Shown here: positions 9,047-41,001 of the stretch, piece after piece | How the letters are laid out: each line of letters begins with the position of its first letter | How positions within the stretch are numbered: position 1 is the stretch's first letter | Origin: Ignavibacteriota bacterium | Lineage (GTDB): Bacteria > Bacteroidota > Ignavibacteria > SZUA-365 | Assembly (NCBI GenBank): GCA_016218045.1 | Contig: JACRFB010000023.1 | Location: forward strand, 1 to 41,001 | DNA: 41,001 bases | Direction: 5' to 3' | The notes under the pieces: generated by a model | Database searches by the model: none | What the model was told of the DNA's origin: nothing | The model's input: the letters and a program-made list of their open reading frames with translations, nothing else | Program-made: the position numbers and the translations under genes

Positions 9047-9541
9047 ATGAATCTGCAGAAAGGAACAACGATTCTCATTTGCGCATTAATCCTGGCTTCG
9101 TTTGCCGGGTGTTCAAACACGAAGGACTACGAGACTAATTCAAGGGCTGCACAGGATTTGATGAAGCTGTACGAGGCCGATCTCATTAAGCAGGCGGAAG
9201 AATATCAAGGCATCTGGGGCGCTGCGATCAGTTCTGGATATAAGGACTTTAATACTGAAATCAATGCACACAAGATGATGCTTGTTGCCGAAAAACGAGA
9301 CGTGACGGACGACCCGCGAAAGGCGAGAATCGACTCTCTCGTAAAGTCGCTTGCCGACGTGCCGTCTGGATCCGAGCAGCTGCACGGCAAGATCGCTGAG
9401 CTGTACGGACACCTCAACCAAATCTACGAGCTGGCCAAGTTCCCACGCGGAAACTTCAATTCATACACGTCAGAGATCAGAGAGATGGCCAGCGGGTTTG
9501 AGCGCCTGTGCAGTGAGGCCGACGCCTACTACAAGCATTGA
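9047..9541 (+). CDS. Small lipoprotein, likely accessory (moron-type) gene
   Basis: This 164-residue protein has a signal peptide ending in a lipobox (ALILASFAGC, Cys22), so it should be lipidated and anchored in the envelope. The mature part is helical and charged, with no known domain. GGAG lies upstream of the ATG. It has its own strong terminator and sits outside the replication operon, the pattern of a lysogenic-conversion gene. A superinfection-exclusion or outer spanin-like role is possible, but neither is shown by the sequence. Confidence 0.75.
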   Translation: MNLQKGTTILICALILASFAGCSNTKDYETNSRAAQDLMKLYEADLIKQAEEYQGIWGAAISSGYKDFNTEINAHKMMLVAEKRDVTDDPRKARIDSLVKSLADVPSGSEQLHGKIAELYGHLNQIYELAKFPRGNFNSYTSEIREMASGFERLCSEADAYYKH

Positions 9542-21845: not shown

Positions 21846-22859
21846 ATGATCTCCCAGTACACCCCGCGGTTCTTGACGACCGCGATCAATGAAATCAAGC
21901 CGCCGAAGCGACGGCTCTTGGACCGCCTGTTCCCGGTGCGCCGGGAGTCCATGGCGGAATACGCCGATATCGAGATCGTCACAGGGCGCCGTAACCTGGC
22001 GCGATTCGTGGCACGCGGCCGCGAAGCGGCGGTGCGCGAGAAGGGCGGCCGGAAAATCGTGACGTTCCGCATCCCGTCGATTCGCGAGAAGATGCCGTTT
22101 CGCGCCGCCGACGTGTTCAAGGCAGTGGCGCGCGGCGCTTCGCCGTTCGTGTCCTCCACCGCGGAGCTGAAGGCATCGTTGGACAAGGAGGTTCTGTTCC
22201 AGCTCCAGGAGTTCCGTTTCTCGTTCGACCGCACCAAGGAGTGGCTTGCGGCTCAGGCCGCAAAGGGTTCGTTCACGATCACGCTTGACGACGGCGATCT
22301 CACGGTCGATTACGGCGTGCCCGCAGCGAACAAGCCTGTGCTCGCCGGCGCGGCAAAGTGGAACTCGGGATCCGCGGACCTCGACATCCTTCAGCAGATC
22401 CGCTCCTGGAAACGCCTCATCAGCCAGGGCTCGGGCTACACCGCAACCGATGTCACGCTCGGCAGCAACGCGGCCGACGCATTCCTCGCCGACGAGCGCG
22501 TGCGCAAGCTGCTCGACGCGAACAACCTGCGCGTCGGCACGCTGGATCTCACCGGCGATGCCGAGTACATCGGCACCTTCGCAGGGCTGCGCTTCTGGAC
22601 GCACGAGGAACAGTACACCGACGCCAGCGGCAACGCCCAGGACTACGTCCCTGCAAACGTCGCTATCGTCAGCTCGAACGCCCCGAACGCGTTCTGGCAC
22701 GGCCCGGTCGACGACCTCGAGGCGAATTTCGGCACGTTCGAATTCTTCTCGAAGCAGTTCGAGCTGAAGGACCCGTCGACGGTCATGCTGCTCGTCGCCA
22801 CCGCGCCGCTGCCCGTCATCCACCACAGCAGTTCGCTCGTCTACGCAACGGTGCTCTGA
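21846..22859 (+). CDS. Major capsid protein, lambda gpE-type
   Basis: The 337-residue product carries family features of major capsid protein E: ARFVARGREAAVREKGGRKI, then FRIPSIREKMPF, a central DLTVDYGVP and SADLDILQQIRSW. It ends VIHHSSSLVYATVL. The length matches gpE (341). It builds the HK97-fold shell with the decoration protein next to it. Mu itself uses gpT, so this head module is of a different lineage. Confidence 0.88.
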   Translation: MISQYTPRFLTTAINEIKPPKRRLLDRLFPVRRESMAEYADIEIVTGRRNLARFVARGREAAVREKGGRKIVTFRIPSIREKMPFRAADVFKAVARGASPFVSSTAELKASLDKEVLFQLQEFRFSFDRTKEWLAAQAAKGSFTITLDDGDLTVDYGVPAANKPVLAGAAKWNSGSADLDILQQIRSWKRLISQGSGYTATDVTLGSNAADAFLADERVRKLLDANNLRVGTLDLTGDAEYIGTFAGLRFWTHEEQYTDASGNAQDYVPANVAIVSSNAPNAFWHGPVDDLEANFGTFEFFSKQFELKDPSTVMLLVATAPLPVIHHSSSLVYATVL

Positions 22860-23926: not shown

Positions 23927-24406
23927 GTGAAATCTTTCATTCTTCTGACCATCCTTTTTGCGTGCCTGGCACTCGCAGTCCCCGCTGCCGAGGCGCAGGT
24001 GTACACGGTGGCCGACACATTCGCGTTGTCTGGGGGGTTCCCTGGAGACGGCATCGGCAAGGACACGCTGCAGCAGACAGGGGAGAACGTCTCGACTCCA
24101 CGACTCGACTCGTTGCATGCTTTTCTGGAACACAGTGATTCGATCAACGTGGTTATTCTGGCGTCTCCTGTACACGCCGGCATATTCCAAACGGAGGCGC
24201 AGATCCTTGCTGACACTGTGCGTGTAAAGGCCGCAGCTAAAACGAAGGCGGGCACAATCGGTGTTACCTACCAGGAACTGAAACAGGCGTTTGCCGGGGC
24301 TGTGCCTCCAACGCTTCGGTTCTTCCAGTATGTCTACCGCCGCGGCACCGGGAAAAATACAGACGGAGGCAGCGCTGTGATGCTCATCAAGGAGATCACG
24401 CACTAA
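23927..24406 (+). CDS. Exported protein of unknown function
   Basis: The GTG at 23927 with TGAGG upstream gives 159 residues. An ATG at 23897 lies inside the previous gene. The N-terminus (VKSFILLTILFACLALAVPA, then AEAQ) is a Sec signal peptide with predicted cleavage at AEA/Q. The mature part alternates sheet and helix (SINVVILASPVHAGIF) and matches no family I know. It is the first of several exported products placed between head-completion and tail genes. Confidence 0.65.
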   Translation: MKSFILLTILFACLALAVPAAEAQVYTVADTFALSGGFPGDGIGKDTLQQTGENVSTPRLDSLHAFLEHSDSINVVILASPVHAGIFQTEAQILADTVRVKAAAKTKAGTIGVTYQELKQAFAGAVPPTLRFFQYVYRRGTGKNTDGGSAVMLIKEITH

Positions 24407-25017
24407 TGCGTCAGCGGCTGTTATACGCGCTCATCGGCGCACTGCTTAGCGGTGCGGCGGTATATGTCGGTCAGTCCGGTTGCGACAATCCTCCCGCAAC
24501 CGGACTGCCGGCCGGCGCGTACTCTGTGGCCTCGCAGACGCGTGCCGAGATCAACATCGACAGCATCCGCGCAGAGCTGGAGGTCGAGCTGCGCGCGGAG
24601 TTGCGTCCCGAGGTGCGGTATGTACGAATACGGGAGCCGCGTGGTTCGGATTCGCCGGCTGTCGCCGATTCGTCTATCGTCGACACGGGCGTTGTTGCCC
24701 AGGCCACTATGCACGCGGAAGGCTCGGCGGCGCTGGCGGAGCGCGATTCGTACATCCGCGAATTGCACGATCGCATAGACCAGAGCGAACGTATTCGCGA
24801 CATCATTGCGGTCGCTGAAATCAGTCAGCCTGACTCGGTGCGCGGCGGCCGTTTTTCCGCGCACCTGGAATTTTCCATGCGCGACGTGGAGTTCCGCAAC
24901 GTCGCGATCAGCTACGAAGCACCAGCGGATCCGTGGTACAGCAGCGTCAGCGAGTATCTGCCGTACGTAGCGGCCGTGATGGGTGTAGTCAAACTCACGT
25001 ACGACATCATCAAATAG
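24406..25017 (+). CDS. Membrane protein with periplasmic coiled coil, inner-spanin-like
   Basis: The 203-residue product has an N-terminal hydrophobic anchor (LLYALIGALLSGAAVYVG) and a charged helical middle (RAEINIDSIRAELEVELRAE; AERDSYIRELHDRIDQSERI). Near the C-terminus is a second hydrophobic stretch (LPYVAAVMGVVKLTYDII). It is coupled to the gene before it and lies next to a holin-like gene and the endolysin. A spanin role is plausible by layout. No outer-spanin partner was confirmed. Confidence 0.55.
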   Translation: MRQRLLYALIGALLSGAAVYVGQSGCDNPPATGLPAGAYSVASQTRAEINIDSIRAELEVELRAELRPEVRYVRIREPRGSDSPAVADSSIVDTGVVAQATMHAEGSAALAERDSYIRELHDRIDQSERIRDIIAVAEISQPDSVRGGRFSAHLEFSMRDVEFRNVAISYEAPADPWYSSVSEYLPYVAAVMGVVKLTYDIIK

Positions 25018-25025
25018 GATCAGTC

Positions 25026-25505
25026 ATGAAGACCATCGTCATGCTCAACCGTTTCGGCCGCGCGGCCATGATGTTCGCGCTTGCCGCATTCATTGTCACA
25101 AGCATTCTTGCGATCCCCGCCTCGGCGCAAACCGCCGCGGACTCGCTGTCCAGTGTGCCCACCGTCGTCACTGTCGATGTTTCGAAAATCAAATCGATTG
25201 GTGATGTGCTGCCCCTCGCGCTCGCGTTGCTGACCCCCTTTCTTATCGGGCTTACGAAATCCGTGCTGACCGTGCGCCGGCGCCAACCCGACGGCACGTA
25301 CGTCGACGAACTTCCCGCCTGGTTCCCGAAGTGGCTGCCACTCGTGCTTGCCCCGGTGGTGCCGTTTTTTGTGACGTGGATTGCGTCTCTCGCGGGCGCG
25401 CAGACAGCGTCGCCCCTGGCTGCAGTGTTGCTGGGCGCTCTCTCGGTTTACCTGCGTGAGATCTGGGATCAGATTCGTAAATCGCGCGCATCAGCCGCCG
25501 TCTGA
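25026..25505 (+). CDS. Holin-like membrane protein with cleavable signal peptide
   Basis: The 159-residue product begins with a signal peptide (MMFALAAFIVTSILAIPASA, then Q). It continues with hydrophobic segments PLALALLTPFLIGLTKSVL, WLPLVLAPVVPFFVTWIASL and PLAAVLLGALSVYL, and ends in a basic tail (REIWDQIRKSRASAAV). Size, topology and place before the endolysin suggest a holin. The ASA/Q signal site is unusual for one. Confidence 0.6.
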   Translation: MKTIVMLNRFGRAAMMFALAAFIVTSILAIPASAQTAADSLSSVPTVVTVDVSKIKSIGDVLPLALALLTPFLIGLTKSVLTVRRRQPDGTYVDELPAWFPKWLPLVLAPVVPFFVTWIASLAGAQTASPLAAVLLGALSVYLREIWDQIRKSRASAAV

Positions 25506-25506
25506 C

Positions 25507-26017
25507 ATGGGCACCATTCGGGCAATCTTTGGCCGGGACCATGTTGGCTGGGCGCTGATAGTCTGCGCTGCAGTGCTGGCTCCGCTTGTGTTGATGTATC
25601 AACACGCTGCTACTGCAGTGGTGTTTGCGTCAATGCTGTTCACTGCCTTCGACTTGTGCGGATTCAAGCATGTTCTAAACGACGGGCACGGTGCCATGCC
25701 TACCGCGTATTACCGCATCATGCAGGGGGGCGTTTCAAGTTGTGCTGTACTTCGCGATCTGGCAGGTCGCCGGCGCGAGAGCGCTTGCAGCCACCGCGCT
25801 TGTGTGGTGGACCGGTGGTTGCGACTTGCTCTACTATTTCCTCGGTAGATATCCGCTGTGGACCAAGAGCTGGACCTGGCTGTGGTGGACCCCCGGCGGC
25901 CTGCTCGCACTGGCCGGTGCATCGGGCAATCGTGACCGTATGTGGTATCCGTTGTGGGCAGTCATTGTGCAATCTGCTGCAGGGCTTGGCCTGGCGGCAT
26001 GGATAATCTGGAGGTGA
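25507..26017 (+). pseudogene. Membrane protein gene with frameshift at a G6 run
   Basis: The frame from the ATG at 25507 encodes a membrane protein (WALIVCAAVLAPLVLMYQHA, AVVFASMLFTAF) up to YYRIMQGG. It then turns into low-quality sequence ending at 25848. The +1 frame, continuing to 26017, carries the expected rest: QVVLYFAIWQVAGARALAAT, then WWTGGCDLLYYFLGRYPLW and a final membrane helix. The switch point is GGGGGG at 25725..25730; with five Gs one coherent protein of about 170 residues results. It may be a mutation, a sequencing error or programmed slippage. It lies within the lysis cassette. Confidence 0.7.
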
Positions 26018-26018
26018 T

Positions 26019-26693
26019 ATGCTGCTCCTGGGACATCATCCGAATGCTGAAGACCTCGAGGCTGAGGCAGGCCTTCGCGAGATTCGCGCGATGTATGAAT
26101 CGCTGCCGCATGATCTCGATACTGTGCGCACGGCGTACCTGCACACGTGTGACGCGTTCGTCGGCGTGCATGAGGTCGGCTCATCGAACAGTTCGTACTG
26201 GGTAGACAAGTTTCTGAATGCCCTCGGACTCGATGCAGGATTATCCTGGTGTATGGCGCTTGAGCAGTTCAAACTGCGGTTTGTGGCCTCCATCTGGGAC
26301 TTGCCGGATCTGATGGCGTTCAATAGTGGCGGGACTCAGGCATGCTACATGTATTACGAGAAGCGCGGCATGGTTTTTACGGATCCGGCGCGCTTGTCTT
26401 TGTGCGATCAGGTCATCTGGCGCAACGGCCTTACGGCGCACGGCCACGTTGGTGGTACATATCGGATCCAGTCGCAGACGTCAGGGCTGATCGTGACGAC
26501 GAACGAAGGTAACACCTCGACGGACGAGAAAACTCCCGGCCGCTGGCGAGACGGCGGGACGTGTGTCAATAAGGAATGGCGGGCTGATAAGTGGGGCAAG
26601 TGGGGCCAGCCGCGCAATCCCGGCCGATATGTACGTGGAGCAATCTCGTTCGAGATGCTCTACCTCGACGCAATAAAGCGCAAGGCGGCGTGA
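26019..26693 (+). CDS. Endolysin candidate, CHAP/NlpC-like cysteine peptidase-amidase
   Basis: The 224-residue product has GGAGG ahead of the ATG. It carries HEVGSSNSSYWVDKFLNALG, then a catalytic-type SWCMALEQF (C78), a histidine-bearing AHGHVGGTYRI (H141/H143) and a polar TTNEGNTS (N162). This matches Cys-His-Asn peptidoglycan hydrolases of the CHAP/NlpC-P60 kind. No signal peptide is present, so release through a holin is expected. Membrane-protein genes lie directly upstream. Confidence 0.8.
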   Translation: MLLLGHHPNAEDLEAEAGLREIRAMYESLPHDLDTVRTAYLHTCDAFVGVHEVGSSNSSYWVDKFLNALGLDAGLSWCMALEQFKLRFVASIWDLPDLMAFNSGGTQACYMYYEKRGMVFTDPARLSLCDQVIWRNGLTAHGHVGGTYRIQSQTSGLIVTTNEGNTSTDEKTPGRWRDGGTCVNKEWRADKWGKWGQPRNPGRYVRGAISFEMLYLDAIKRKAA

Positions 26694-26694
26694 T

Positions 26695-26979
26695 GTGGAA
26701 CTCTCGATCGTCCATGATACCGCGACGGGATGGCAGCTCGCACGGCAGCGCAGGCACGAGGAAACCGTGTCAACGCCGGCGACAGAAATCACCATCGAGC
26801 ATGCCATCGATTATCGGTATCCGAAGGTCGACTGCTACGACGCCGCCGGATACCTCGTGCCGCCGTCGCGCATCCTGGAACTCGAGTGCGGCGAGCATTC
26901 GCCGGTCACCGCGAATCGGTATTTCGTGCGCATCATTTTTGCTGATGCTTTTTCTGGCGTCATCGTTTTGCACGACTGA
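26695..26979 (+). CDS. Unknown small protein between endolysin and fibre genes
   Basis: The GTG at 26695 follows the endolysin stop by one base and gives 94 residues (VELSIVHDTATGWQLARQRR). The middle and end are beta-rich (TEITIEHAIDYRYPKVDCYD; NRYFVRIIFADAFSGVIVL). No family was recognised. The 3' end overlaps the start of the next gene in another frame. A small virion or chaperone protein is possible. Confidence 0.55.
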   Translation: MELSIVHDTATGWQLARQRRHEETVSTPATEITIEHAIDYRYPKVDCYDAAGYLVPPSRILELECGEHSPVTANRYFVRIIFADAFSGVIVLHD

Positions 26980-28690
26980 TGCCCATGCGCAGATCGCGTT
27001 CGGTGGTGGTGTGAAACGCATCACATTGGCCCGTCGTGATAGCGTGGCTGTCGATACGCTGTGGCTGCTGCAGTATTGGCTGCGTTCGAAGATCGACAGT
27101 GCGATCGCCGCAAATCCCGCTGCTGCAGATTCGTTGTTCGGCAGGCGACCGCATGATTGGAATGCGTCACAGCGGTGGCGCGATACTCTCGCAGCTGCAG
27201 AGACGGCAATCCCGTGGTCATTCCAGGAAATGGATACCACGCTCGCATGGTGGGCACTGACGTTGACGGCCAACGAGTGGACGAATGGACCGGCTGGCTC
27301 TCCGAACTACACCGATCGCGTGATGCGCTTCGGATACAACATGGAGCGCGACGATCTCTCCGAACCGTCTATCGGTCAGCAGTATGAATCGAAGTACTAC
27401 AACAGTAAGTGGATGATGGAATGGCATCTGGCGACCGTCGGCATCGACGGCACAAACCACCGTCCACTGTCGGCAACGTTTGATCGATACCGTGGGCACA
27501 TGCTCGAGCTGACGGTCGAGTCACGCGTCACCGGCTTTCGCGGCGATGGTCATGGAGAGCCGTGGCTGTACCTGGATGCAGACGATGATTCGACGTCGCC
27601 GGGTGTCGGGAGCGTCAAACTCTTGAACGGATCAACACTCCAGGCCGCAGATCCAAACGTGAGTATCGTCAACGCCTCGAACAACAGCACGATCCAGAAC
27701 GTGATATCGACGGGCGGCAATACGCAGCTCTACTTCGGTTCGTCTGGTTGGACTGACCTGAACCTGCAGGCCGGTACGAAGACTTTCACGCTGAACTACG
27801 CCGGCATCATTTCACAGAACATCTTCGTGGCCACCGATGCCTCAGATACGACCGGCGTGTTGGGCTTTAATGAATATGGATGGTTGAGGAAACGTTGGCT
27901 TGTGACGATAGGCCAGGTCAACGCACGCGTGTCAGCGGGTCTGGATTCGGCGTTTACTCAGACTGGCGGGCGCCGGCTCAACGTTGCAAATCTGTCTCAC
28001 GGGTCAAACGGCCAGTACCTGGTGATGTTTGGCGGGGCCCCATCGTGGGTCACGCCGTCGTGGGCGACGGCAGGTAGCATTGCAGACTCGATACGCGAGC
28101 TGCTTGACGGCACGCGGAAATTCCATCACTCACGGATTGATTTTACAGGTTACTCGTCCGGGTTATCCGCGGACAGCGTACGGCGGCTTGGGCGCCAGTA
28201 CATCGCGCCCATGGCACAGATGACGTTCTGGAATACGAGCGATACGGCGGCTCTCAGGTTCTTTCACGCAGACGCGGCGGGCGGTGTGAATACTGGTCCT
28301 GGATCCTCGGCGCTGCTGTTTCATGCTCCGTATCCATTGGTGATTGACCGCATGGTAATCACCCATAGTCGAGACACATCCACCACGGCGCGCAGGCGTG
28401 ATACCCTCGTAACGTTCACGCTACGGGATTCAATACCACAGGGCGCAGCCGTATACGTCTACTACGCAGGATCGGCGGTGTCGACGGTGTACAACGGCAG
28501 CGGCCTGCAAATCGTTGGCATGGGGTACAAGGCTCTAAACGACCTCAATACGTTCTATTTCGTAGGTCAAAAAATACAGGTACCGCTGATAGTGCCGAAC
28601 ATGCTGATGTCTCGTCGAGGTGTTCGTGACCAGGACTGGCTGTCGTGCACGGTGTCGTTTATCGAAAAAGTCCCGGGGTTAATATACTGA
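26945..28690 (+). CDS. Large exported beta-rich protein, fibre/adhesin-like
   Basis: The frame is open further upstream, but the ATG at 26945 (or TTG at 26939) places a signal peptide, LFLASSFCTTDAHAQ, at the N-terminus with an AHA/Q site. The 581-residue product is rich in Thr, Ser, Gly and Asn. It contains a possible carbohydrate-binding or jelly-roll-like region (YRGHMLELTVESRVTGF) and fibre-like text (GRRLNVANLSHGSNGQYLVM). No family assignment is safe. A receptor-binding or surface-exposed role is likely by composition and position. Confidence 0.6.
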   Translation: MLFLASSFCTTDAHAQIAFGGGVKRITLARRDSVAVDTLWLLQYWLRSKIDSAIAANPAAADSLFGRRPHDWNASQRWRDTLAAAETAIPWSFQEMDTTLAWWALTLTANEWTNGPAGSPNYTDRVMRFGYNMERDDLSEPSIGQQYESKYYNSKWMMEWHLATVGIDGTNHRPLSATFDRYRGHMLELTVESRVTGFRGDGHGEPWLYLDADDDSTSPGVGSVKLLNGSTLQAADPNVSIVNASNNSTIQNVISTGGNTQLYFGSSGWTDLNLQAGTKTFTLNYAGIISQNIFVATDASDTTGVLGFNEYGWLRKRWLVTIGQVNARVSAGLDSAFTQTGGRRLNVANLSHGSNGQYLVMFGGAPSWVTPSWATAGSIADSIRELLDGTRKFHHSRIDFTGYSSGLSADSVRRLGRQYIAPMAQMTFWNTSDTAALRFFHADAAGGVNTGPGSSALLFHAPYPLVIDRMVITHSRDTSTTARRRDTLVTFTLRDSIPQGAAVYVYYAGSAVSTVYNGSGLQIVGMGYKALNDLNTFYFVGQKIQVPLIVPNMLMSRRGVRDQDWLSCTVSFIEKVPGLIY

Positions 28691-29046
28691 TGAAAACCGT
28701 GTTGATGCTGGTAGTGATGTGTGCCACTCTATGTGCACAGACTACAGTCGAGAGCGTTCCGTACGAGCAGGACAACGACTCGCGTATCTCACTGCGCGGC
28801 ACACGATTCGTGTTCACCGACTTGGCGGGGCTCGTCCAGATTGGACCGGATGACAGTGCTACTGTGTCGATCGACGGGCTGACGTCCACAGATTTTGCGA
28901 TTGTGTCGTATGCCAACCGCGGCCCCGTGCTGCAGGCCGCCGAGGAGCCAAACGTCGGGTGGGCGATCTGGCAGGATGGCATACTCACCGTATACGGTCG
29001 TAATGACAGCTACGTGCTGTACCTTATTCTAAGGGTTTTGCAATGA
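28690..29046 (+). CDS. Small exported protein, fibre-operon partner
   Basis: The ATG overlaps the upstream stop (TGATG), giving 118 residues. VLMLVVMCATLCAQ is a signal peptide with an LCA/Q site. The mature part is beta-rich (SRISLRGTRFVFTDLAGLVQ; VGWAIWQDGILTVYGRNDSY) and could be a small beta-sandwich. No family was recognised. Tight coupling to the genes on either side suggests they act together. Confidence 0.6.
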   Translation: MKTVLMLVVMCATLCAQTTVESVPYEQDNDSRISLRGTRFVFTDLAGLVQIGPDDSATVSIDGLTSTDFAIVSYANRGPVLQAAEEPNVGWAIWQDGILTVYGRNDSYVLYLILRVLQ

Positions 29047-30740
29047 AGCATCTGCTGATTGTTCTGGCGCTGCTGGTGGCGGTGATAGATATGGCCGCTC
29101 AGCCTCGCATCTGCCGTATCACAGGCGAGCTGCGCTTGATTGATGGATCAGTGGCCGCCGGGGCTCGTCTGCGAATATCGCGGCTGCGTCCTGCCGGATC
29201 TACGACATACCAAGTGCTCACGAAGCCTGTTGAGGACACCGCGGATGCGAACGGCATTATCGCAATCGACGTAATCGCAAATAGCGTCATCAGCGTGTGG
29301 TCACCTGACAGATTTCCTGCAAACGGGTATCCTACCTCGGCACCAGGGATTGATTTGGTAGTACCAGATGCAGACGCTGCAGTGCTTGGGGCGTTGTCGC
29401 CGGCTCCAGCTCTTCCGTCGTACACTGCAGTCCTCGGGCTGCCCATTATGGTGAAACATGGCAGCGATTCCGCCCTGGCTCGATCCGTCGTATTTACAGG
29501 ATCAGGCGTGGGCAGCGTACTCTTCGATGCATGGACCGCCACCGTCACGATCACCGGCGGCGCTGGTGCTGCGGACACGAGCGGGACGTGGTTCAATACC
29601 GCCCACACGCGCATGGAGCAAACGGACGCAGCGATTGCTGCTGCCGCCGTTGCAGCACAAGGCACTGCAGATGCAGCCGGCGCCGCGGCGGCCACCGCGC
29701 AGAGCACTGCAGACGGTGCGGCGAGCGCAGCAGCCACTGCGCAAAGCACCGCAAATGGAGCGGCGAGCGCGGCGGCCACCGCGCAGAGCACTGCAGACGG
29801 CGCGGCGAGCGCAGCAGCCACTGCGCAAAGCACCGCAAATGGAGCGGCGAGCGCAGCGGCCACCGCGCAGAGCACTGCAGACGGTGCGGCCTCAACGATC
29901 TCTAGTCACGCGGCGAATACAAACAATCCGCACTCGGTCACGGCTGCACAGGTGGGAGCGCCGACAACCTCGACGTTCATTGCGGAACAGGCATTGAATG
30001 CGAACGAACACGCGGCGCTGCGCGACTCCTCTAGGGGCTGGCGCACCTTTGTACGTCCTGCGGCGCTTGATACATGCATCGATGTTGACAGCTCGACTGC
30101 AGGGCTGTATGTACTCTCCATCAACATTGACTGCATCCGAGACAGTGGCCTGTTGGGTCCAATGCTGGATAAAATGTATGCACGTTCAGGAGGCAGCGCA
30201 ACTCTTCCGGACTCGGTGCACGCAGAGATATTCGCGTCCGACACGAGCGGCGGCTGGTTTATCGACAGTTGCTACGTATATCGCAACCAGGTGTTCGTGC
30301 CGCGCGGATCGGCAACATATAAACTCGGCTGGGTAGAGTACACGGTTTCAATCACAAACCAGATGAGCGGCAAGCCGTATTTCGAGATCGACGTTGCGGC
30401 GGACACATCAAACGGTTGGTATCTCACGGGCTGCGGCGAGGCGACGATAAGCAGCCCGGCAAGTACTACGAACAACTGCCGAGGAAAATACGGTTTCGGC
30501 AACGGCGACGCCTACGTGGTGACAATGTATGTTGGGAATGCGGGCCGCAACCCCACCCCGACGATGGTGTTTTACCAAACCGGGACCGCGACTTGGAACG
30601 CACGCCGCACACTGCGCGTATCAACTACCGGAGCCAACATCTACGACGGCATGACGATGACGATCCGAATCGAGGTCGCCGGGACAAACACGTCCACGGG
30701 AACCATGTACGCAACAATTCGACCAGGGAGAGGTGCATGA
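29043..30740 (+). CDS. Long fibre protein with signal peptide and Ala-rich repeats
   Basis: The 565-residue product begins with a signal peptide (MKHLLIVLALLVAVIDMAA, then Q). A small Ig-like or carboxypeptidase-regulatory-like domain follows (ICRITGELRLIDGSVAAGAR). Residues 217-286 are five 14-residue repeats of the type ATAQSTADGAASAA, probably a helical stalk. Then comes NTNNPHSVTAAQVGAPTT, a motif common in tail fibres, and a C-terminal beta domain of about 240 residues, the likely ligand-binding head. The signal peptide is hard to reconcile with cytoplasmic virion assembly. Confidence 0.72.
   Translation: MKHLLIVLALLVAVIDMAAQPRICRITGELRLIDGSVAAGARLRISRLRPAGSTTYQVLTKPVEDTADANGIIAIDVIANSVISVWSPDRFPANGYPTSAPGIDLVVPDADAAVLGALSPAPALPSYTAVLGLPIMVKHGSDSALARSVVFTGSGVGSVLFDAWTATVTITGGAGAADTSGTWFNTAHTRMEQTDAAIAAAAVAAQGTADAAGAAAATAQSTADGAASAAATAQSTANGAASAAATAQSTADGAASAAATAQSTANGAASAAATAQSTADGAASTISSHAANTNNPHSVTAAQVGAPTTSTFIAEQALNANEHAALRDSSRGWRTFVRPAALDTCIDVDSSTAGLYVLSINIDCIRDSGLLGPMLDKMYARSGGSATLPDSVHAEIFASDTSGGWFIDSCYVYRNQVFVPRGSATYKLGWVEYTVSITNQMSGKPYFEIDVAADTSNGWYLTGCGEATISSPASTTNNCRGKYGFGNGDAYVVTMYVGNAGRNPTPTMVFYQTGTATWNARRTLRVSTTGANIYDGMTMTIRIEVAGTNTSTGTMYATIRPGRGA
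29691..29900 (+). repeat. Five 42-bp tandem repeats in the fibre stalk
   Basis: Units start at 29691, 29733, 29775, 29817 and 29859. Each encodes 14 residues, with Asp or Asn alternating at one position (STADGAAS, STANGAAS), so units 1, 3 and 5 and units 2 and 4 resemble each other most. This is an 84-bp higher-order period. Copy number could change by recombination or slippage and alter stalk length. Confidence 0.9.
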
Positions 30741-31385: not shown

Positions 31386-32039
31386 ATGGCACAGCGCACC
31401 CCCGCCGAGATTGCACAGGAGCTGTATATCAACGGCAACAACTTCGCCATTATCTATCCAATCACGTCTGCTTCGGGCACGTTGACACTCGGCACGCCGC
31501 TGCCGTTTGAAGCGCTATCGGAAACGAGCATCAAGGATCCGATGTCGACCGGTAAAACCGAGTACATCCAGGCCAATCTCGACAACGGCGTGACCGTGGA
31601 GGCGAAGAAGGTGACGAAAGTTGTTGATGCCGCCACGGGCGCTGAAAAGGTTGGCGGCGGCGGCGACAATGTCCCGACTATCAAATTCACGCACTACGAG
31701 GCATCGAAGGACAAGCTCGCAGCCGTAAAGGCGCTGCAGGATGATTACGTGCTCGTCTGTGTGGGCCTCGGTGACGACGCCGCGGATGCCGCAGACGTGG
31801 CAGTGGCAGTACTGCTCGGCAAGATCACAAGCGATATCGAGCGGTCAACCAAGGGCAACGAGATGGTGAGCTGGCCGGTCGAAGTCCAGGGCGAGACGAT
31901 CGCCGGCATCACGGCCGGAACCGTAACAACATGGCTCACCACGATCACCCCGCTCGGCGCCGACGCTGCAATCACCATCCCCGCGTTGACAACAGGCGAC
32001 GTTGTGACGCTGGCCACCGGCGTCATGCTGTACCTCTAA
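31386..32039 (+). CDS. Major tail tube protein candidate
   Basis: The 217-residue product has a strong CAGGAG before the ATG, as expected of an abundant structural protein. It combines a beta-rich N-terminal domain (NNFAIIYPITSASGTLTLGT) with a Gly/Asp loop (GAEKVGGGGDNVPTIKF) and a C-terminal region that may be an extra surface domain. No tail-sheath gene is present next to it. Assignment rests on size, expression signal and place at the head of the tail genes. Confidence 0.6.
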   Translation: MAQRTPAEIAQELYINGNNFAIIYPITSASGTLTLGTPLPFEALSETSIKDPMSTGKTEYIQANLDNGVTVEAKKVTKVVDAATGAEKVGGGGDNVPTIKFTHYEASKDKLAAVKALQDDYVLVCVGLGDDAADAADVAVAVLLGKITSDIERSTKGNEMVSWPVEVQGETIAGITAGTVTTWLTTITPLGADAAITIPALTTGDVVTLATGVMLYL

Positions 32040-32123
32040 CGGTTACGGTCAAAACACGTCGTGGCGGGCTTTCGTCAGATATCGACATTTTATGAGGACG
32101 GTTACGGTACCGTAACCGTCCTC
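32039..32123 (+). promoter_or_regulatory. 30-bp perfect palindrome plus upstream arm copy, attenuator-like
   Basis: Positions 32094..32123 form a perfect dyad with 15-base arms (GAGGACGGTTACGGT and its complement) and no loop. A further copy of ACGGTTACGGT lies at 32039..32049, right at the previous stop codon. The right arm can therefore pair with either left copy, and the longer hairpin would enclose the GTG start at 32061. This could control translation of the large tail gene. Confidence 0.6.
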
Positions 32124-34421
32124 TTTGTCGTCGCCGATACCTACGATGACCTTTTCGCCACGGCCGCCCATCCTGACATAGACGTCGTCCAACTTAAGAC
32201 GACGAAGAAAGATCTCGACCTGCAGGCAGGTGTGCAGGCAGAGGACGAGTTGACGTTCACCCTGGACGAGGCGTCCGCATCTGGAGCTGCTGATTCAAAC
32301 GCAGTCGCGTTTATCCTCGACGCCCGCGACGCTGCAGTACTGCGCTACGTTGCCCTGTTTGTCAATCCAGTGGATCCAGACGCACCAACAAACGATGAAG
32401 CTGAATTCACAGGCGTCATCCGTCCTGAGTTTCACGCTACGGACAGCGTCTGGTCCGGTGGGCAGTGGAGCGAATCTCCCAGCCCCGTCCGTGTGTGGGA
32501 TGTTACAGCGCGGCCGTTCTGGGCTGACATCCTCGAAAGTGTCCCGCTCAAAGATCTGATCTACGGCAATGCCACAACGGGCGTGTCTGCCGCATTCAAT
32601 ACCGCCTGGGAGACTGCGTGGGTCGCGGACCGTATGGGGTACTTTCGCGATACATCCAGCGGTCGCGAAGCCCTGTGGGGATCCATCACCTCGGTCAATG
32701 CTGCGCTTGAGTCGCTGTGTGCGGCACTGGCAAACGGCCTACAGGTACTTGGTCGCGGCACGTATGCCATCAGCATCGTCAACTCAACGTGCGGATTCAG
32801 AATTATCCCGCAGCGCATTGCGTACTGCAAGCGACTGGGTGGCGGCTATGGTCGGTATGCCTATGCGAAAGATTCGTCGAACACAAAAGTGTATCGCGTG
32901 CGCTCAGACGACGCCTTCGAGCCGATGTTGGGCTGGCCTGCTGGTTGGGTCCCCAGCGCGCTGAGTAACACCCATCTGTACTGCCAGTATCAGCTGGTAA
33001 AGCCCAGCATCGTCGACAAAAAGGACGTGTACTCTCCTCCAGGCACCAACGCCCAGGCAATCGCGTTTGAGCGTTACGACAATTTAGCCGAGCTGATCTA
33101 TGCCGTTGCTTTTGCGTTGGGCATGTACGTGCGGTTTACCTACATAGGCAGTTCGGATTTGCAGATCGAATTTGTTCCGCGCGCCGGCGTATCGCAGCAC
33201 CGCGTATGGTTGAGAGATGCGACAAAGGCGGACCTGGACACGTCGCCGATGGATCCTGACGACGATAAGCAGTTTTACGGAGCTGCAAGCGGACTCGCTG
33301 GAGAGGGTGGGCACTATATCTACGATGCGATCAACGGGGTGTACAAGTTGAATGACGAGTGGCGGGATGCAAAGCGAGAAGGAGATCAGCTCTTGTTCTC
33401 GATCGGCATTCCGTTCCGGTCGTTCAAGCCCGGGTATGCCGCTGACGGAGAAAATTGGTCCGATGTCTTGTTGCCCCACAACGCACGGTTCTACAACGGC
33501 GGCGCTGCTGTCACGACACATCCAGCCGAGTATTACGATGCGAAGGGTTCATGCACGACTCTGTTTTGTCGCACAGCCGCAGTAGGCGATACAGATACAA
33601 CGGTAGAGCATGGGCTCAACGGTACCGACGATGTGATTGAGCCGGTGGGGCTTATCGGCGTGCGTGTCTCCGGCGTGTATGACTACTGGTTTGACACCTT
33701 GGAAAGCTACGTCTCCTGGCTCATCGATCGCGACGGTGCCTTCTATAAGACCGAATACAGCATTGATGTGCCGTACCTCTGCAGCTGGAGAAAGAGTGCC
33801 GACGGTACGCACCCCGACGACGACGGCGGCCGCGGCCGAATCCTGAATCTGGCGCTTGGCTGCGAATACGTTCAGGATGGTGTGGAGTACGTCGTCGTTG
33901 GGATTGAACGCGATTGGGCGGTGCGCTCGACGCGGCTGCGGCTGCAAAACATTGACCGCTTCGCATTCGGCGAGCCTGATAATCCTGCGACGACCGATGG
34001 CAGCGTCCCAGCGCTTGCGGACGGCGGCGATGGGTACCAGGCGACTCTTACCCGTGAGTGTGTTGCAGGAGAGGCTCTGGCTCAGGGTGACGTTTTGTAC
34101 ATGGCTGCAGATGGTGCGCTGTACCGTGCGACAGCGACCGATGCAGTGTACGGACGTATCGTGGGCGTGGCGGCTCATGCCGCCGCAACCGACGAGGTTG
34201 TATCGGTGCTGCTGCCGCCGTCCATATGCGACTCGTTGGCGTACGCGTTTTCGTCCGGCGATCGCTTATATCTGAGGACAGGTTCGCCGAACGTGTCTTC
34301 ATCGCGGCTCGCTTCCAACACTGGCACCGAAAATCTTTTCCTTGAGCTTGGGACTGCGCTCAGTCCTGCGTCATTTCGCTTCGAGCTCGGAGAGCAGTTC
34401 GTATTTCCTCCAACATTTTGA
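32061..34421 (+). CDS. Large tail-tip or hub-like protein
   Basis: The 786-residue product starts with GTG and has no clear ribosome site. The first part contains a domain with ISTFYEDGYGTVTVLFVVAD and acidic beta text. The middle is rich in aromatic residues and the C-terminal 120 residues (ECVAGEALAQGDVLYMAADG) look like a fibre or decoration-type beta domain. Position and size fit a tail-tip/hub or distal-tail protein. No domain can be named securely. Confidence 0.6.
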   Translation: MAGFRQISTFYEDGYGTVTVLFVVADTYDDLFATAAHPDIDVVQLKTTKKDLDLQAGVQAEDELTFTLDEASASGAADSNAVAFILDARDAAVLRYVALFVNPVDPDAPTNDEAEFTGVIRPEFHATDSVWSGGQWSESPSPVRVWDVTARPFWADILESVPLKDLIYGNATTGVSAAFNTAWETAWVADRMGYFRDTSSGREALWGSITSVNAALESLCAALANGLQVLGRGTYAISIVNSTCGFRIIPQRIAYCKRLGGGYGRYAYAKDSSNTKVYRVRSDDAFEPMLGWPAGWVPSALSNTHLYCQYQLVKPSIVDKKDVYSPPGTNAQAIAFERYDNLAELIYAVAFALGMYVRFTYIGSSDLQIEFVPRAGVSQHRVWLRDATKADLDTSPMDPDDDKQFYGAASGLAGEGGHYIYDAINGVYKLNDEWRDAKREGDQLLFSIGIPFRSFKPGYAADGENWSDVLLPHNARFYNGGAAVTTHPAEYYDAKGSCTTLFCRTAAVGDTDTTVEHGLNGTDDVIEPVGLIGVRVSGVYDYWFDTLESYVSWLIDRDGAFYKTEYSIDVPYLCSWRKSADGTHPDDDGGRGRILNLALGCEYVQDGVEYVVVGIERDWAVRSTRLRLQNIDRFAFGEPDNPATTDGSVPALADGGDGYQATLTRECVAGEALAQGDVLYMAADGALYRATATDAVYGRIVGVAAHAAATDEVVSVLLPPSICDSLAYAFSSGDRLYLRTGSPNVSSSRLASNTGTENLFLELGTALSPASFRFELGEQFVFPPTF

Positions 34422-36277: not shown

Positions 36278-36663
36278 CAATCAGCGAACGTGATGCGACA
36301 GACAAAGTGCGCGATTTTCTCAACGCGTGGCGACTGCGTGATTGGGCTGCGATGGCGCGCACAATACAGCTCACGCCGGCGTCGCATCATGGTGGCCGCC
36401 TAGCGGATTACCTTCGTACCTGGTTCTCGCCGCGCATGCTGGTCTCATATTCTATCGAAGACACGGTCATCTTCTCGGACTGCATGATGGAGATACGTGT
36501 GCTGATCAAGTACCTGCACCCCGGCACGCCCGGACGACGAGTAGAGCTGCGAGTCAACACGATTTGTGAACTCGCGCCGTACACGCCTGCAGGTGGTGAA
36601 GTGCCTGGCGGCGTCTGGGGTGTAAACCCCGCCAGCGCGTTGCGCGAATATGTGGTGACGTGA
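36274..36663 (+). CDS. Unknown protein before tape measure, possible NTF2-like fold
   Basis: The 129-residue product starts with GTG overlapping the previous stop. VRDFLNAWRLRDWAAMARTI resembles the first helices of NTF2-like proteins. Later strands (SYSIEDTVIFSDCMMEIRVL; RRVELRVNTICELAPY) fit the same fold. The match is by pattern only. It lies directly before the tape measure and overlaps it by a few bases. Confidence 0.55.
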   Translation: MTISERDATDKVRDFLNAWRLRDWAAMARTIQLTPASHHGGRLADYLRTWFSPRMLVSYSIEDTVIFSDCMMEIRVLIKYLHPGTPGRRVELRVNTICELAPYTPAGGEVPGGVWGVNPASALREYVVT

Positions 36664-39600
36664 TGCCTGAACTTCCAGTAGTTGTCACGTTCTCTCCCGC
36701 ACTCGATGTGGCGCGCCTAAATGTTATGATCATGGCGCTTAAACGCGCATTGGGACCTCTCGGGCAGGAAATCAAACCGATCGACGGAGATGCCCTTGCC
36801 GCAGAACTGCGCCAGGTACAGAAGGCGGCAAAAGATGCTGGTGAGGAAATCGACCGCACTGATGAAAAGCTGAACACGCCAGCGGCTGCTGGAAGCGGCG
36901 TGCCGGGAGGCAGGGCCTTTCAGTTCAACCAGCTCTATCAAAGTGTGACGGCCGTCAGCTCCGCGGTGCAGGATCTGAGCGCACCGTTTACCGCACTCGA
37001 TACTCAGGTGAAGAATATCGGTACGCTTGGAGTCGAGAATTTTGAGGCGTACGCCGACCTGGCGATAGACCTCTCGACTCGCGTGCCTGACTCTGCCGCC
37101 GCGATCGCTGCAGGTGTATACGACGCAATCGGTGCCGGCGTCACGGGCACGCAGGAGGAGATCATCTCGTTTGTCGAGACGGCATCGAAGATGGCCGTCG
37201 CCGGCATGAGCGACACGCAGAGCGCTGTCAACGGTCTCACCTCGGTGATGAACGCGTACAAGCTGCCTGCGACCGACGCTGCACGCGTGAGCGACATATT
37301 CTTCGGCGCCATCAACGTTGGAAAGACGACACTGCCGGAAATGAACGCCAGTCTGGCAAACGTGATTCCCGCGGCGTCGGCCGCCGGCGTCGTGTTCGAA
37401 GAAGTCGCCGCGATGATCGCACAGATGACATCGCTCGGCGTGCCCACAAGTCAGGCTACTACTCAGATTCGATCGGCGATAGTGGAGCTGCAAAAACCGG
37501 CAGGACCTCTGGCATCTGTCATGAACTCAGTCGGTCTAAACGCAGCGAACATTGGAGAGGAGATCCGTCGGAAGGGCCTTATTCCGACTCTGCAGAAGGT
37601 CGAGAAAGCCGCCGCGTCGATGGGCCTGTCGATGACGCAGGTGTTCAGTAGCAGCGAGGCCGCCTCGGCCGCGCTGCTCGTAACAGGAGAAAACGCATCA
37701 CGCGCGAATTCCACTTTTGACGCCGTGCAGCTCCAGGTCAAAGCCAAGGCCTCGCAGCAGGCGTTCGCCGTCGCGTCCGAAGGGATCGAGGTACAGGCGA
37801 AGATCACACTCAACAAAATTCAGTCGTATTTCATGGGCGCGTTTGATGTGATAGGCGGTGGCGCGATATCGGCGGCCAACACAGTCGCTTCGCTCGCGCC
37901 AACGCTCACGGCCATCACAAGTCTGAAGTCCATCGTACCCGACTCGGCAATCACCTCGCTCAAGGTGGCTCTCGACACCAAGGCACTGCCGGCGATTCAG
38001 AAGATTGCGCCTGCGTTGTTCACCGCTAGTGCAGGCGGGAAGCTCGCATTTGCTGGTCTCAGTAAGGCGGCTGTGGCGTTCGCTACAAATCCTGTGTTTC
38101 TCACCATTGCCGGTATTGCCGCCGTGGTGACTGCTACAAAGCTTTTGACCGATGCGCTGAATGAAACGGCGGCAGAGCGTGCGGCCGAGACGAATGAGCA
38201 GCTCAAATTCACTCAGCAACAAAAGGCCGAGACCGAGTCACGTATGGCGCAGGTCGAAAGCACTGAGGCGTTGGCATGGGAGTACGTGCACCTGGCAAAA
38301 CAAGTCGAGGCGTCGGGATTGAGTGCGGAGGAGGCCGCGTCGAAGAAAGAGCGGCTCAGCCAAATAACAGAGCAGCTCAACGGACAATATCCGGGTGTCA
38401 TTAAACGGACTGGCGATCTCGCCGATAACCTCGACGCCGTCAAGAAGCTCGCGGCCGATTCAGCTTCGAAGATCGACGACCTGCAGGGATCGTTGGACCG
38501 GCTGAGTCAGGCTGAGCAGGATCTATTGAAGCTGCAACTTCAAGACCAGGTCGACGTGGCCGCGGAAGATATTGAGAATATGATGACCGAGATCATCAAC
38601 GATTCTCAGGGTTTCATGGAGAACAAAGCGGCTGATATTGGCGAATGGCTGGGCCTCGGTTCCGCTGGCCGTGTGAGCGCACAGCAGTTTGTAAAGAGCT
38701 TCACCCTCGAGATGCAGGACGCAAAAAACGGTGCCGAGTTGGCCGATGCATATGACGCAGTAAGGAAGCGTATTGCAGACTCCGGCGCAGAACCCGAACA
38801 GGTGCGCCAGTTGACGGCCCTTGCGGCGAAGTACCACCAGGCTCGTTTGCAGCAACTCTCGAGTGAAAAGCAAAAAGAGGAAGAGACAGGCGCTGCTGCC
38901 GTACAGAAAAAACAGGAAGTGCTGACCGTTGGTGGGCGTATCGCTGAGATTGAAGCACAGATCAAATCAATAGAAGAACAGCGCGCGAAAATTCCGTTTC
39001 TATCGGTTGACCGAATCAAGCAACTGGCATCCCTGGACTCACAACGCGCGGCTCTTCAGAAGGAACTGGAGCAACTCCAGGGTAAAAACACGAAAAGCGG
39101 CGAGTCGGCCTACGACCTCGCCAAGAAGAAGCTCGACACAGAACTGCGCACTCTGACCAATGAGGAGAAACGTGCGCAGGTAGTGCGAGAATCACGCAGG
39201 CTGGACGAAGGACGCAAGCGCACGGCCGAGGACGAACTCGCTGATGCGACCGCACACCGTGGTGTACTGGCGCAACAGCTTGAGCTTGAAAATAGGCGCC
39301 TCGCCACCGCTCGAAAATACAAGGACGGCGCAAAGGATGTGGAGGGCATCCAGGCGCGCATCCAGGAAATCAACGTCGACATTGCGGCCCAGGAAAACAC
39401 TATCAAAGAGGCACAGGCAGGCGTGCTCGAGGATGCGCGAGACCTGGCTCAGAAGATCCGCGACGAGCGTCTGGCCGTAATCGAATTTGAGGTGGGCCTC
39501 GGATTGGCGAACAACACGGCCATCGTGGCAGAGATCGGCCGCCAGCTCGCTGAAATCAACCAGGAGGTTCTGCAGGCACAGACCGCCGGTAACTCCGATC

Positions 39601-40727
39601 TCGTCGACGAGCTGCAGGCTAAAATGCGTGATCTCTACCAGAGACAGTATGACCTGGCACGCGAGGCTGCAGACCGCGAGCGCGACTTGCTGAATGATAA
39701 AATGGAGCGTGAGGCCGCGGCAATGCAGGCACGGCTCGACCGCGAACGCGCATTCTTCGATCGGCTGGTGGAGCTGCAGGAGCGGCTGGGCACAAAATCT
39801 CTGGATCTACAGTCCGATGATCGCCTGGCCGCGCTCGATGCGCAGAAGAAACGCGAACTCGACGCCGTGGGGGATAGCGCCGAAGCGAAGGAGCAGCTCG
39901 AACGCGTCTTTGCGGCTCGTCGTGAGGCGGTCGAGGAAGAGATCGCACGCAAGCGCCAGGTTCTGCAGGCGCGTATTGCCGGGCAGCAGGCGGAAGCCGA
40001 TCGTGTCCAGGCTGTGCGGAAGCTTGAGGCTGATCGTGCACGAAAAGCAGCGGAGCTGGCCACGTTAGCGCCCGGATCTCCCGAGGCCGAAAAGGCACGT
40101 CGCGATCTGGCCGAGATCGAAGGCGCCCTGAGCGAAAAGGCTGATTCGCTCAACGGGATTATGGAAACCATGAGTGCGGGATTCAGCGATGCCATGGCTG
40201 GCCTATTCTCGGGCGACCCGGAGGCGATGCGTGAGTCGGTTCGTGGTACGATGTCCATGATTGCCGGCATCCTCGAAAACCTTGCTGCGGCGGCCATCGA
40301 AAAAATGGTGTTGGACTGGTTGCTAATTGACCCTGCGTCCGCAGCTCTGCCGTTCTGGGTTAAGCTAGGAGTAATACCCATGATAAAGGTGGCGGCACGC
40401 GGGCTGGTAGGTGGTCTGTTGGGTCCAGTCCTGGCGCAGCTAGCCAGTTTTGCGTCGGGCGGCCGTGTGGACGAGCCGACTGTAGCTGTTGTTGGCGACG
40501 CAGCAAGGGCCGGCATGTCGCGCAACACAGAATGGATTTTCCGCGACCAGGACATCGAGGCGTTACAGGCGGCGCAGGCGGCTACGATGTATTCGCTCCT
40601 GCGGTCAGAATTTGCTATGTTGCGCAGCGCGATCGACCAGATCAACGGCCGCTTCGTTCTGACCGGCGAACAGATCCGTGTCGCGTCTGACCGTAACCGC
40701 GCTCGCCAGCGTCAACGGTACCGCTAA
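36663..40727 (+). CDS. Tape measure protein, TP901-type
   Basis: The 1354-residue product uses the ATG at 36663, overlapping the previous stop (TGATG). Residues about 100-340 match the TP901-type tape measure core (STRVPDSAAAIAAGVYDAIG; ATTQIRSAIVELQKPAGPLA). Hydrophobic segments lie near 395-425 and 475-495 and again near 1205-1265 (GGLLGPVLAQLASF). Very long charged coiled coils fill about 500-620 and 730-1170. At about 0.15 nm per residue the tail would be near 200 nm. It sets tail length and may form part of the DNA ejection channel. It is the last gene of the prophage. Confidence 0.92.
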   Translation: MPELPVVVTFSPALDVARLNVMIMALKRALGPLGQEIKPIDGDALAAELRQVQKAAKDAGEEIDRTDEKLNTPAAAGSGVPGGRAFQFNQLYQSVTAVSSAVQDLSAPFTALDTQVKNIGTLGVENFEAYADLAIDLSTRVPDSAAAIAAGVYDAIGAGVTGTQEEIISFVETASKMAVAGMSDTQSAVNGLTSVMNAYKLPATDAARVSDIFFGAINVGKTTLPEMNASLANVIPAASAAGVVFEEVAAMIAQMTSLGVPTSQATTQIRSAIVELQKPAGPLASVMNSVGLNAANIGEEIRRKGLIPTLQKVEKAAASMGLSMTQVFSSSEAASAALLVTGENASRANSTFDAVQLQVKAKASQQAFAVASEGIEVQAKITLNKIQSYFMGAFDVIGGGAISAANTVASLAPTLTAITSLKSIVPDSAITSLKVALDTKALPAIQKIAPALFTASAGGKLAFAGLSKAAVAFATNPVFLTIAGIAAVVTATKLLTDALNETAAERAAETNEQLKFTQQQKAETESRMAQVESTEALAWEYVHLAKQVEASGLSAEEAASKKERLSQITEQLNGQYPGVIKRTGDLADNLDAVKKLAADSASKIDDLQGSLDRLSQAEQDLLKLQLQDQVDVAAEDIENMMTEIINDSQGFMENKAADIGEWLGLGSAGRVSAQQFVKSFTLEMQDAKNGAELADAYDAVRKRIADSGAEPEQVRQLTALAAKYHQARLQQLSSEKQKEEETGAAAVQKKQEVLTVGGRIAEIEAQIKSIEEQRAKIPFLSVDRIKQLASLDSQRAALQKELEQLQGKNTKSGESAYDLAKKKLDTELRTLTNEEKRAQVVRESRRLDEGRKRTAEDELADATAHRGVLAQQLELENRRLATARKYKDGAKDVEGIQARIQEINVDIAAQENTIKEAQAGVLEDARDLAQKIRDERLAVIEFEVGLGLANNTAIVAEIGRQLAEINQEVLQAQTAGNSDLVDELQAKMRDLYQRQYDLAREAADRERDLLNDKMEREAAAMQARLDRERAFFDRLVELQERLGTKSLDLQSDDRLAALDAQKKRELDAVGDSAEAKEQLERVFAARREAVEEEIARKRQVLQARIAGQQAEADRVQAVRKLEADRARKAAELATLAPGSPEAEKARRDLAEIEGALSEKADSLNGIMETMSAGFSDAMAGLFSGDPEAMRESVRGTMSMIAGILENLAAAAIEKMVLDWLLIDPASAALPFWVKLGVIPMIKVAARGLVGGLLGPVLAQLASFASGGRVDEPTVAVVGDAARAGMSRNTEWIFRDQDIEALQAAQAATMYSLLRSEFAMLRSAIDQINGRFVLTGEQIRVASDRNRARQRQRYR

Positions 40728-40765: not shown

Positions 40766-40860
40766 ACAGGCCACTATAATGATCGTTTTTTGCAGGTTTT
40801 GGCTGCTCGGTCTTGGCCAAACCAGGTGCAAAACGTGGCCAAACTAGGTGCGCCGTTATA
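40766..40860 (-). promoter_or_regulatory. Right end (attR) with transposase-binding-site-like repeats
   Basis: R1 (40836..40849, TGGCCAAACTAGGT) and R2 (40814..40827, TGGCCAAACCAGGT) are inverted copies of the left-end motif. R1 lies 11 bp from the end, matching L1. A degenerate copy in the left-end orientation is seen at 40792..40805 (GCAGGTTTTGGCTG). The outermost bases TTATA mirror TATAA at the left end. No gene lies between the tape measure stop and this site. Confidence 0.85.
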
Positions 40861-40865
40861 CTCCG
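40861..40865. repeat. Right copy of 5-bp target-site duplication (CTCCG)
   Basis: This copy is identical to 137..141 and abuts the inverted terminus TTATA. It belongs to the host gene sequence and forms the Gly-Gly codons at the join. Confidence 0.93.
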
Positions 40866-41001
40866 CCCGCGATGTACGGCGATATGTTACTCTCGGTCAG
40901 ATATAAACGCGCACCGGCGCTGAAGAACAAGAGACTCGCATCCGACCCGCCCAGTGCGGCGAAACCTCCTTCGAGACCCAAACGCGGAAACACCATCCGC
41001 T
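40861..41001 (-). pseudogene. Host beta-barrel-like protein gene, proximal fragment, disrupted by prophage
   Basis: On the minus strand, from 40999 downward, the frame is open: RMVFPRLGLEGGFAALGG, SLLFFSAGARLYLTES and SPYIAGG. It continues in frame into 1..141 once the prophage and one CTCCG copy are removed. Alternating beta-strand text with Gly turns suggests an outer-membrane barrel. The 5' end is outside the window, so the family remains open. Confidence 0.7.

Follow-up and report, generated by a model that had tools for sequence, protein, structure and literature searches.

Tail fibres are taken to assemble onto phage tails in the cytoplasm; why, then, does a prophage of a Bacteroidota bacterium carry fibre-like genes whose predicted products begin with export signals? 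The window, the whole stretch of DNA analyzed here, is contig C23 (41,001 b) of a 4.77-Mb genome and contains a Mu-like siphophage prophage with clear PHROG matches for MuA, MuB, terminase, portal, protease, a head protein, and head-tail genes. The context of the locus is set on one side by the Mu-like major head protein (21846..22859, +; phrog_29, E=1.5e-60). On the other side lie a gene at the tail-tube position (31386..32039, +), which directly follows the fibre cluster as in relatives, a 786-aa tail protein past the tube gene (32061..34421, +; genes of 780-804 aa take the matching position in relatives), and the tape measure protein (36663..40727, +; phrog_991, E=2.4e-41), the large last gene of the prophage before the contig end at 41001. 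Both window ends (1-150 and 40800-41001) resemble pieces of a host outer-membrane beta-barrel gene and look like the two sides of a gene interrupted by the prophage. The early region encodes a predicted lipoprotein (9047-9541) with a leader ending FAG/C (slashes mark predicted cut sites throughout). No relatives turned up when viral contigs were scanned with the head protein, the 26945 product, and the 32061 protein, or when phage records were scanned with the 29043, 26945, and 32061 products.

A hand-written rule, calling for a hydrophobic leader, a small residue at -1, and Gln at +1, was applied to all ORFs of at least 80 aa in the six frames of the window (n=192). Exactly five pass, at 23927, 25026, 26945, 28690, and 29043, and one 7-kb late-gene block contains them all. 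Their leaders are MKSFILLTILFACLALAVPAAEA/Q (SP1, 23927, GTG start), MKTIVMLNRFGRAAMMFALAAFIVTSILAIPASA/Q (SP2, 25026), MLFLASSFCTTDAHA/Q (SP3, 26945), MKTVLMLVVMCATLCA/Q (SP4, 28690), and MKHLLIVLALLVAVIDMAA/Q (SP5, 29043). Under a first-order Markov null, 78 of 14,811 ORFs (0.53%) pass, so that about one is expected against the five seen; the scan and the clustering together rule out a chance origin. Of the 33 cut sites predicted in 279 kb of the host genome, 19 (58%) have Gln at +1, over a background of ~3%. This bias matches the Q-rule of Bacteroidetes signal-peptidase-I substrates, which carry Gln after the cut site (PMC5837995), and the phage leaders therefore fit their host; leader and bias are alike in the two settings, although the rule was described for cellular proteins rather than phage fibres. 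Genuine Sec/signal-peptidase-I signals tuned to a Bacteroidota host are thus the best explanation of the five predicted leaders. The SP3 leader is the weakest, being very short and lacking both a positive n-region and a clear ribosome-binding site, and that of SP5 has an unusual Met at -3. None of the five products has a lipobox (Cys at +1), Gln occupying +1 in each, and SP3, SP4, and SP5 match no Pfam family at E up to 1, type IX C-terminal sorting domains included.

The first two leaders belong to the lysis cassette. SP1 (23927..24406, +; leader ending AEA/Q), a predicted exported protein, heads it, and its position in G404, a different prophage from the same host family, is occupied by another leader protein (ATA/Q). 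Next in line is a spanin-like protein (24406..25017, +) that has membrane segments at both the N and the C terminus, assigned by sequence and position in a layout that is the same in G404. It is followed by SP2 (25026..25505, +; ASA/Q), whose G404 homologue is 36% identical and has the leader EAAA/Q; two further membrane segments beyond the leader make it holin-like rather than a soluble exported protein. The cassette also includes a second two-TM protein (25507..25848, +) and a putative leaderless endolysin (26019..26693, +), assigned by sequence and position and matching nothing in Pfam or PHROG.

The remaining three leaders lie on a tandem cluster, the sole fibre locus found in the window prophage, behind a small fibre-adaptor-like protein without a leader (26695..26979, +). 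The C-terminal part of this adaptor candidate is 27% identical to the protein directly upstream of the leader-bearing fibre of G404 and is also recovered by profile. SP3 (26945..28690, +; AHA/Q), a long fibre-like protein, overlaps the end of the adaptor gene with its start; SP4 (28690..29046, +; LCA/Q) is a small cluster protein; and SP5 (29043..30740, +; MAA/Q) is tail-fibre-like, with coiled-coil repeats, a NNPHSVTAAQVGA motif, and PHROG tail fiber matches down to E=5.6e-6 that fall mostly across its repeats. SP3 and SP4 have no tail fiber PHROG match. AlphaFold modeling of SP5 alone yields a mean pLDDT of 42, with the coiled coil as the sole confident part. The cluster sits between the lysis and tail-tube genes, as fibres do in ten relatives. 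A preliminary description of this DNA had named the same five leaders and A/Q cut sites, all of which are present where it placed them. Its assignment of the signal peptides to the Q-rule, with three on tandem fibre or beta-rich proteins, and its suggestion of export are supported by the sequence; the assignment of SP1 and SP2 to the lysis cassette is a correction to it.

SP3 also has homologues with full A/Q leaders and fibre-like repeats in host contigs, C70 of its own genome and one from G405, a genome of the same family, on which no phage genes were seen. Leader-bearing fibre-like proteins therefore need not be virion parts. A scan of the genome collection with the host-type homologue matched its own record only. 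Host-encoded exported proteins at L018:662-3046 and L019:6669-9161 combine A/Q leaders and long DSL repeats with a C-terminal domain that matches phage tail-fibre PHROGs, and a Bacteroidota genome encodes a secreted protein (L066:949-2292; LQA/QVGINTTSP) matching a phage tail-protein family.

A head-protein profile search of the class recovered related prophages in 17 genomes, the window's included; none of the other 16 belongs to the host's own family. The region from lysis to tail-tube genes is readable in ten of these prophages (G389, G196, two in G674, G575, G595, two in G532, G669, and G647), all from other host families. Fibre-type genes occupy it in all ten without a leader, while the lysis cassettes of these relatives do include leader proteins. 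The fibres of the Mu-like siphophage relatives in G389, G196, G674, G575, G532, and G669 thus share the window's locus but not its leaders, which identifies the locus as a fibre locus and the leaders as a feature of the window phage.

Within the host family, fibres of two further phages do carry such leaders. In G404 the fibre gene comes behind those for the tape measure and a hub-like protein; its product has the leader LAA/Q, matches PHROG families for virion structural proteins (2.4e-18) and tail proteins (1.5e-13), and resembles annotated tail proteins of cultured phages. The fibre of a podophage-like contig, G407, has the leader ASA/Q. Whether relatives keep the leaders, a check put forward in the preliminary description, accordingly has two answers: they are kept in these unrelated phages of the same host family and missing from the Mu-like prophages of other families. 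Alternative starts that skip the leader were considered and rejected for G407, in which no in-frame start falls between leader and conserved domain, all those ahead of the domain being inside the leader or before it; several leader genes do have start codons past the leader. Disulfides as a reason for export proved uninformative, since a Cys pair is common to G404 and G407 but the leaderless 32061 protein has 10 Cys. Host sequence is duplicated on both flanks of the G404 prophage (G404:C1:2711000-2750999; L022/L023), which suggests its integration boundaries, and the head-gene region of the podophage-like contig encodes a 222-aa protein with a leader ending AQA/Q (G407:C22:14858-15526).

Fibre leaders are rare but recurrent in IMG/VR. 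Among loci with a common fibre motif, about 4 of 72 fibres have one (L133, L098, L102, and L106), and a second fibre query found no convincing fibre leader in 79 loci, both samples being non-dereplicated and including ORFs that end at a contig edge. The L133 fibre has the leader AFS/Q and a consensus ribosome-binding site, AAAGGAGG. In L098, L102, L106, and L167, leaders are present on both the fibre and an adjoining protein of ~190 aa, and lysis genes come next after this pair in L102, L106, and L167. The lysis region of L167 also includes, adjoining the leader-bearing fibre genes, a gene (L167:7356-7793) whose thioredoxin-like product (WCKPC) starts with a hydrophobic leader. L149 encodes homologues of both proteins (48% and 44% identical) without leaders, and the start of each nearly coincides with the mature residue of its leader-bearing counterpart, a pattern to be expected of a mature fibre that functions whether or not it is exported. 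No other comparison argues as strongly as this on/off pair that the predicted leader adds a function to a fibre that already works; the leaders are modular and probably used. Read from the sequence, then, are the leaders, their match to the Q-rule, their locus, their recurrence, and their on/off switching in a related group.

The best reading, to which we assign a probability of roughly 0.4, is that the fibres are exported by Sec, cut at A/Q, and attached to virions at lysis. The export, cleavage, trimer formation, and virion attachment that we infer would proceed as follows. Late in infection, SP3, SP4, and SP5 would be made as precursors and pass through Sec; cleavage at A/Q would expose a Gln that is probably turned into pyroglutamate, and the mature fibres would fold in the periplasm. 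Heads, tails, and the leaderless adaptor (26695) would meanwhile assemble in the cytoplasm, until lysis proteins encoded by the same phage open the membrane, bringing the two pools together and letting the fibres bind virions. Joining to the virion is favored because the fibre locus is filled by these genes, a search of the window prophage turned up no further candidate for a fibre, and a single fibre type occurs in leader-bearing as well as leaderless form. Several points count against it. Sec export would take the fibres away from the cytoplasm, where tails are built; the 32061 tail protein could be the true receptor-binding protein; SP3 combines a weak start with a weak leader; and the homology of SP3 and SP4 to known fibres is weak or absent. 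To our knowledge, no tailed phage has been shown to acquire fibres that were exported by Sec.

Nearly as likely a destination is the host surface, where the exported fibre-like proteins, as something other than virion parts, might bind the host's own receptors or act as adhesins. Receptors would thereby be masked on the infected cell and its debris, superinfection blocked, and progeny kept off dead cells, or the lysogen surface would be altered. Export itself is in keeping with such a role, as are the lysis-gene neighborhood, the host-encoded, leader-bearing SP3 homologues, and the secreted fibre-like protein of host type that another Bacteroidota genome encodes. There are also precedents. The T5 superinfection-exclusion protein Llp is a phage-encoded envelope export (PMC9586334), although it is a small lipoprotein rather than a fibre, and the window's five products are free of a lipobox. 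PblA and PblB of Streptococcus phage are tail-like proteins on bacterial surfaces; pneumococcal PblB has a putative signal peptide, whereas that of S. mitis reaches the surface via lytic induction (PMC4508584). Their hosts, however, are Gram-positive, and they have no known homology to the window fibres. Porphyromonas gingivalis phages of the proposed family Nixviridae encode Q-rule leader proteins of unknown function (PMC10367356), while three of those in the window prophage lie in the fibre module. Weighing against a surface role, the proteins take up the sole fibre locus identified in the window prophage, and in G404 the position where fibres are canonically encoded; ordinary fibres stand at the window's locus in relatives; L098 and L149 are leader-bearing and leaderless versions of a single fibre type; and the window proteins have no lipobox and match no Pfam family, type IX sorting domains included.

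It is improbable that the leaders have no part in export and are instead hydrophobic N-termini that stay uncut and tether fibres to the tail or a membrane, or products of overlapping frames. In three unrelated phages the coding sequence for the fibre leader (SP3 and the first fibres of G404 and G407) does overlap the 3' end of the gene upstream, in the +1 frame, and places the cut site no more than ~16 nt from that gene's stop; the SP3 leader is atypical, and that of L102 is more like an uncut anchor. SP4, SP5, and L133, however, have leaders even though each starts at the stop of the gene upstream or just beyond it, which rules out an overlapping-frame artefact as the general cause. Moreover, A/Q recurs across unrelated leaders though Gln makes up ~3% of residues, and the host homologues of SP3 carry full leaders. 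Least probable of all is a degenerate prophage with host secreted-protein genes as cargo of no phage function: the SP3 relatives found in the host family are host-encoded, but the head, tail, lysis, and transposition genes retain intact reading frames, and the same pattern occurs in two other phages and several IMG/VR phages.

If periplasmic maturation and joining at lysis hold for the window prophage, they may extend further. We tentatively propose, from the sequence comparisons, a class of tailed phages that would mature their receptor-binding fibres outside the cytoplasm, using Sec, folding in the periplasm, and joining only at lysis, and that would switch to and from this route by gain or loss of leaders on the whole fibre module. 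The open-access papers searched contain no report of Sec-exported tail fibres except the predicted signal peptide on pneumococcal PblB, and phage DGR target proteins, in a survey of them, were reported to be without signal peptides (PMC6199706).

Host-tuned export signals thus occur on fibres in separate IMG/VR lineages and, within one host family, in three or more phages that are unrelated to each other, and the host-recognition parts of the window prophage probably leave the cytoplasm rather than joining the virus there. Either the last steps of building some virions would then take place beyond the cytoplasm, or phages would be exporting copies of the proteins they use for recognition, and either outcome would change views of phage assembly and receptor competition, in Bacteroidota and beyond.
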